In this document: positions 13,665-13,862 of the stretch, piece by piece
Position numbering within the stretch: the first letter of the stretch is position 1
How the letters are laid out: the number at the start of each line of letters is the position of its first letter
Assembly: GCA_028820635.1 (NCBI GenBank)
Contig: JAPPIG010000084.1
Span: 124,001 to 188,000, forward strand
Length of the DNA: 64,000 nt
Origin: Candidatus Poribacteria bacterium
GTDB taxonomy: Bacteria > Poribacteria > WGA-4E > WGA-3G
Direction: 5' to 3'
Program-made: the position numbers and the translations under genes
The notes under the pieces: model-generated
Database searches by the model: none
Told to the model about the DNA's origin: nothing
The model's input: only the letters and a program-made list of their open reading frames with translations

Positions 13665-13862
13665 ATGAAAGACAAGATTGCCTACTTCCCTGAACGCAAG
13701 CAAAGACCAGTCAAGCCGGTGGAACCCGGCGATGGTGGAGACGATAGCAACGCTCCTAAACGCCCCGATGTTAATAGACCAGATACACAAGAACTTCTCA
13801 AACGGATGCGCCGTGTAGACAAAGACCAATCCCGGCGATACCGTCAAAGAACGGGGGAATAA
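13665..13862 (+). CDS. UBact/Pup-like small protein modifier
   Basis: 65 aa, Lys/Arg/Asp-rich, C-terminal ...LLKRMRRVDKDQSRRYRQRTGE. Sits between dop and prcB, the canonical pup position. AGGAGA RBS; stop overlaps the prcB ATG (TAATG). Confidence 0.9.
   Translation: MKDKIAYFPERKQRPVKPVEPGDGGDDSNAPKRPDVNRPDTQELLKRMRRVDKDQSRRYRQRTGE

Follow-up and report, generated by a model that had tools for sequence, protein, structure and literature searches.

We report that a Candidatus Poribacteria genome encodes a complete UBact-proteasome operon beside a separate, equally complete Pup operon. The UBact operon lies in a 64,000-nucleotide stretch of DNA (the window) and is compact, with the order ATPase-Dop-UBact-20S beta-20S alpha-PafA (Table 1). 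In the reading that we favour, at a probability of roughly 0.78, translation alone would already yield UBact in the Glu form that is ready for conjugation, the PafA-type enzyme (PafA_U) would ligate it, and the Dop-type enzyme (Dop_U) would mainly remove it again, next to an independent Pup operon. PafA_U would use ATP to phosphorylate the gamma-carboxylate of Glu65 and then ligate the modifier to substrate lysines, after which the ATPase of the operon would thread the modified substrates into the matching 20S particle. Dop_U would remove and recycle UBact, its deamidation being a latent activity, relevant only in the few Gln-encoding lineages. The Pup operon would run separately, and its Gln-ended Pup would require its own Dop. 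What we infer from the sequences is that PafA_U is active as a ligase, that Dop_U serves chiefly in deconjugation and that the two systems are insulated. The UBact gene itself is an ordinary member of its family, and its terminal Glu is expected; the unusual part is the second complete Pup system found in the window genome and in almost all of its relatives.

Table 1. Features of the UBact operon (window positions) and of the Pup operon (positions in L093, i.e. G000:C54:70000-88000)
Feature	Coordinates	Strand	Evidence
Mpa/ARC-type proteasomal ATPase (ARC_U)	10064..12019	+	TIGR03689 pup_AAA 454.7 bits (cut-off 504.75); Pfam AAA and proteasomal OB domains
Dop-type deamidase/depupylase (Dop_U)	12082..13599	+	TIGR03688 482.3 bits (cut-off 492.3); PF03136 552 bits; Dop-loop, catalytic residues
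AGGAG Shine-Dalgarno-like sequence 5' of UBact	13651..13655	+	direct sequence reading
UBact modifier, 65 aa, C-terminus RQRTGE	13665..13862	+	NF033388 equivalog 75.4 bits (cut-off 35); PF20513 66.9 bits (cut-off 27.8)
Terminal GAA codon, Glu65, predicted conjugation residue	13857..13859	+	sequence reading; Glu/Gln only across 79 genomes
20S proteasome beta (beta_U)	13862..14704	+	PF00227 80.6 bits; TIGR03690 164.7 bits; TTV...GDRRAT...K catalytic pattern
Divergent 20S alpha-type subunit (alpha_U)	14683..15474	+	PF00227 25 bits; TIGR03691 64.3 bits
PafA-type ligase, predicted (PafA_U)	15542..17002	+	PF03136 461 bits; TIGR03686 367 bits (cut-off 551); TIGR03688 360 bits
Pup-operon ATPase	L093:5494-7308		TIGR03689 717 bits
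Pup-operon Dop (Dop_P)	L093:7344-8897		577 bits, over Dop cut-off
Canonical Pup, ends IQRGGQ	L093:8984-9181		PF05639 69 bits
Pup-operon 20S beta	L093:9184-9975
Pup-operon 20S alpha	L093:10018-10728
Pup-operon PafA (PafA_P)	L093:10718-12079

The UBact open reading frame translates to MKDKIAYFPERKQRPVKPVEPGDGGDDSNAPKRPDVNRPDTQELLKRMRRVDKDQSRRYRQRTGE followed by a stop, and its TAA codon (13860-13862) overlaps the ATG of the 20S beta gene in the sequence TAATG. Since the profile searches place it above the cut-offs of both curated models by a wide margin, the reading frame is not a chance one. It resembles the described UBact family (PF20513/NF033388) in these models, in the C-terminal G-[E/Q] and in its neighbours, i.e. 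Dop and PafA homologues, an ATPase and 20S subunits, and at the level of the window we see no difference from that family; what the Poribacteria genomes add is the complete Pup operon. With Pup of Actinobacteria (PF05639/TIGR03687) the gene shares the character of a small modifier ending in G-[E/Q] and the homologous Dop/PafA enzymes, and the UBact and Pup of these genomes have a common tail pattern, Y-x-Q-R-x-G-[E/Q]. However, Thr takes the place of the first Gly, so that the protein ends in TGE and not in GG[E/Q], and its conjugating half is basic, not acidic as in Pup; the Pup model PF05639 gave no match to it at E <= 1. No match to the window UBact was found in phage and plasmid records either.

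We then consider how firmly the last residue is fixed. UBact was detected in 79 of 87 Poribacteria genomes, and all 79 sequences end in the heptapeptide Y-R-Q-R-T-G-[E/Q], whose first six positions are invariant. The final residue is Glu in 75 genomes (GAA in 47, GAG in 28) and Gln in the remaining four (CAG in three, CAA in one). A sequencing or reading error at the terminal codon was ruled out, as Glu is encoded by either codon in 75/79 genomes. Synonymous codon variation at a position that accepts only Glu or Gln indicates that the amino acid itself is under selection and speaks against a processing step that trims the end; thus the final Glu/Gln very probably represents the true end of the protein. 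The original prediction had read the gene as a UBact modifier with an encoded terminal Glu in RQRTGE, which the translation, the GAA codon and both curated models bear out, and it had named C-terminal processing as one event that would overturn it, against which the same 79 genomes speak. Its emphasis on the change from Gly-Gly to Thr-Gly was justified insofar as the Thr-Gly is real; being invariant in Poribacteria UBact and within the range of the curated models, it is no peculiarity of the window. One could still imagine that UBact is processed or acts non-covalently, e.g. as a proteasome degron or regulator, with the terminal Glu being incidental. The open literature that we examined reports no UBact conjugate, which would suit such a role; nevertheless, the constancy of the tail and the presence of a PafA/Dop-family protein in every UBact-bearing Poribacteria genome make it very improbable.

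ARC_U scores below the cut-off of its proteasomal ATPase model, and its TTG start may have been placed too far upstream, with an in-frame ATG lying further in; its N-terminal part contains a duplicated acidic stretch, EDELELDEDIE. It ends in ...SRKTPSPVI and has no GQYL/HbYX-type tail such as the Pup-operon ATPase carries, and the final VI recurs in nearly all relatives. The operon is split in one family of genomes (G007, G008, G010, G011), where ATPase-Dop stands apart from UBact-beta-alpha-PafA; three of the four UBact-Gln genomes belong to this family.

Dop_U marginally misses the Dop equivalog cut-off but has the features of an intact enzyme. It matches solved Dop (4b0r, 5lrt, 7oxy) over nearly the full length (residues 1-468 and 412 bits against 4b0r/5lrt) and keeps the catalytic residues. 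In Acidothermus Dop numbering, E8, E10, D94, R205 and R227 are conserved across all four clades of enzymes discussed below, the equivalents of W47, D94, T217 and R227 are invariant in 20/20 genomes aligned, and the Dop-specific W47, H95 and alpha-loop F208/F209 are retained in Dop_U. The Dop-loop region measures 53-58 residues in Dop_U versus 21 in PafA_U. Moreover, dN/dS of Dop_U is 0.04-0.08 (about 0.05), indicating purifying selection as strong as that on the Dop of the Pup operon.

The assignment of PafA_U is the weakest step of the mechanism, as its profile scores, sequence matches and predicted fold fit a ligase and a hydrolase alike. It lies far below the PafA equivalog cut-off and scores nearly equally with the PafA and Dop models, and the solved structures closest to it in sequence are those of Dop. 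The AF2 model (pLDDT 86) has a glutamine-synthetase fold, the same as that of PafA (4b0t, 4bjr; TM about 0.8), with the PafA-Pup structure 4bjr (TM 0.81) and Dop 4b0r as its nearest and equally good matches; the alpha-loop is predicted with low local confidence. We consider PafA_U a putative ligase on account of its gene position, its short insert, its own clade and its lack of Dop-specific residues. Alternatively, the assignments might be swapped or mixed, so that PafA_U is no plain ligase or forms a heterodimeric or bifunctional enzyme with Dop_U. Besides the near-equal scores, the insert of 21 residues, compared with 10 in the PafA of the Pup operon, and the clade-specific motifs DMGHLEY and YEWIQFSR could be taken in this sense, as could the tree, which does not firmly sort the UBact enzymes into a ligase/hydrolase split (support 0 for all PafA against all Dop); a heterodimeric ligase was formerly proposed for species with two paralogues (PMC2588565). 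Yet PafA_U retains the catalytic Asp (D64 type, in 18 of 19 sequences, the remaining one being unreadable) together with the ATP/Mg residues, has neither a full Dop-loop nor the Dop alpha-loop residues, and occupies the last place in a gene order shared with the Pup operon, whose last gene is PafA. A swapped or mixed arrangement is thus unlikely, and a plain ligase is the reading with which we proceed.

A search for the PF03136 family found four proteins in the window genome and in most relatives. Two of them belong to a second complete operon, located on contig C54 (L093, 5494-12079), which encodes a canonical Pup. Pup was detected in 80 of the 87 Poribacteria genomes. Pup itself is often Glu-ended; here it ends in Gln in 59 of 79 genomes read, the window genome included. 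Both tags could be read in 73/87 genomes, as UBact-E/Pup-Q in 56, E/E in 13, Q/E in four and Q/Q in none, while six genomes have UBact only and six Pup only, some such cases being incomplete bins. Faulty binning does not account for the double system, since single-contig chromosomes (G023, G047, G082, G084, G085, G086) carry both loci. The absence of Q/Q from 73 genomes corresponds to a naive hypergeometric p of 0.002; a rule that a genome may have no more than one tag ending in Gln was nonetheless dropped, because all four UBact-Gln genomes fall in families whose Pup ends in Glu throughout, so that phylogeny can explain the zero. We found no description of UBact and a complete Pup operon in one genome in the open papers that our search covered. 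The founding UBact paper, reportedly that of Lehmann et al. in 2017 (BBRC 483:946), lies outside that scope, and the novelty of the double system is therefore not certain.

On the tree, Dop_U, Dop_P, PafA_U and PafA_P each make up a clade, those of Dop_U and Dop_P being distinct and deep. Actinobacterial Dops group with Dop_P (support 98), and C. glutamicum PafA groups with PafA_P (support 98, but on a long branch); Dop_U and PafA_U differ from the actinobacterial enzymes both in falling below the NCBIfam equivalog cut-offs and in forming clades of their own. The split of all PafA from all Dop has support 0, and a topology that groups the enzymes by operon is no worse (p-AU 0.496). The tags differ strongly in charge: the median net charge of the last 40 residues is +6 for the 79 UBacts versus -15 for Pup. 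Charges calculated for the whole protein, not for the groove, are -22 for PafA_U versus +2 for PafA_P and -24.5 for Dop_U versus -13 for Dop_P, i.e. the differences between the enzymes run in the direction complementary to the difference between the tags. The ATPase tails also differ, being ...RVI or SPVI in the UBact operon and GGT[Y/F]L or similar in the Pup operon. It seems that the two pathways are probably insulated; as the charges are those of whole proteins and not of grooves, we treat insulation as a supported interpretation. We lean, with some reserve, towards the broader view that Poribacteria would operate two complete tagging-proteasome pathways in one cell, insulated from each other, with separate ATPases and 20S particles and with different sets of substrates. 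One would use a basic tag, acidic enzymes, a mostly Glu-encoded terminus and an ATPase tail VI (UBact), and the other an acidic tag, a near-neutral ligase, a mostly Gln-encoded terminus and an ATPase tail GGT[Y/F]L (Pup). Such a natural dual system, with two Pup-type tags in one cell, would offer a built-in comparison for the evolution of tag specificity and of the two roles of Dop.

These data also bear on why Dop_U is kept. It might be retained not for UBact deconjugation but for deamidating the Pup of the second operon, a cross-talk for which the frequent Gln end of Pup and the membership of Dop_U and Dop_P in one family could be cited. The Pup operon, however, has an adjacent Dop of its own that scores above the Dop cut-off, the two Dops stand in separate deep clades, and tag and enzyme charges are strongly different between the systems. 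Moreover, Dop_U persists where Pup likewise ends in Glu: in the stretches that were read, at least 11 of the 13 E/E genomes show Dop_U as well as Dop_P, and where neither tag ends in Gln a need for deamidation cannot be why Dop_U is retained. Cross-talk is thus quite improbable, and the comparison supports deconjugation as the retained role of the UBact-operon Dop. Changes of the terminal residue from Glu to Gln or back number at least three in UBact (on the tree of the neighbouring beta subunit) and at least four in Pup (on the tree of the Pup-operon Dop). Such a switch takes one base change, and repeated flips would be expected if Dop tolerates both forms.

The mechanism has precedents among known systems (PMC12288473, PMC7947786). 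In species with Pup-Glu no deamidation is needed and Dop is thought to be mainly a depupylase, according to a review (PMC12288473); the likeness lies in a modifier translated with Glu, and the difference in the tail, GGE there and TGE here. The G[EQ] terminus, used directly or after deamidation, was published as a signature in 2008 (PMC2588565). The original prediction, which had correctly placed a Dop-like gene directly upstream of UBact, held that deamidation should be unnecessary and that Dop would act mainly as a deconjugase. The first point is sound for a Glu-encoded UBact; it fails for the cell, in which Pup-GGQ with its own Dop means that deamidation is still needed, and the treatment of UBact as the only system has to be given up. 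The second agrees with a Dop_U that is intact, catalytically complete and constrained in Glu lineages. Given the review and the 2008 signature, the deamidation and deconjugase arguments were reasonable, not new. As for the lysine adducts proposed for mass spectrometry, trypsin is expected to leave TGE from UBact (computed +287.1117 Da) and GGE from Pup (+243.0855 Da), and the GE adduct also suggested would require another protease. Metaproteomes with Poribacteria should accordingly contain these two distinct lysine remnants.

Scans with the UBact alignment and with Pup also retrieved homologues from viral contigs, one contig for each. A UBact homologue ending in RQRSGQ (PF20513 66.7 bits) lies on IMGVR_UViG_3300018079_000002 (5977-6189, +) between portal and Mu-F-like head morphogenesis genes, in a neighbourhood that also has the genes for terminase, scaffold and major head protein; this 70-kb contig (L272) showed neither PafA/Dop nor a 20S subunit. 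A canonical Pup ending in IQKGGE (PF05639 69.1 bits) is encoded on IMGVR_UViG_3300032805_000027 (612-800, +) with the small terminase gene on one side and the large terminase/portal/prohead protease genes on the other; this 14-kb contig (L274) showed no PafA/Dop gene. Neither viral protein matched a PHROGs family or a cultured-phage record. Two places in MT835496.1 (35724-53088, L278), an unverified 'Bacteriophage sp.' scaffold, match PafA/Dop-family proteins; this scaffold may be a mislabelled cellular contig. Within the window, a subtilase gene (PF00082, 17709-19055) overlaps a small ORF (19018-19386) that weakly matches PopD, the inhibitor of PopC (24 bits, cut-off 200), and the two could possibly form a protease-inhibitor pair adjoining the UBact operon. 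Upstream of the operon, positions 6168-9599 encode a 1143-aa protein that has a cysteine cluster and, in its C-terminal part, a weak AbiEi-like match.
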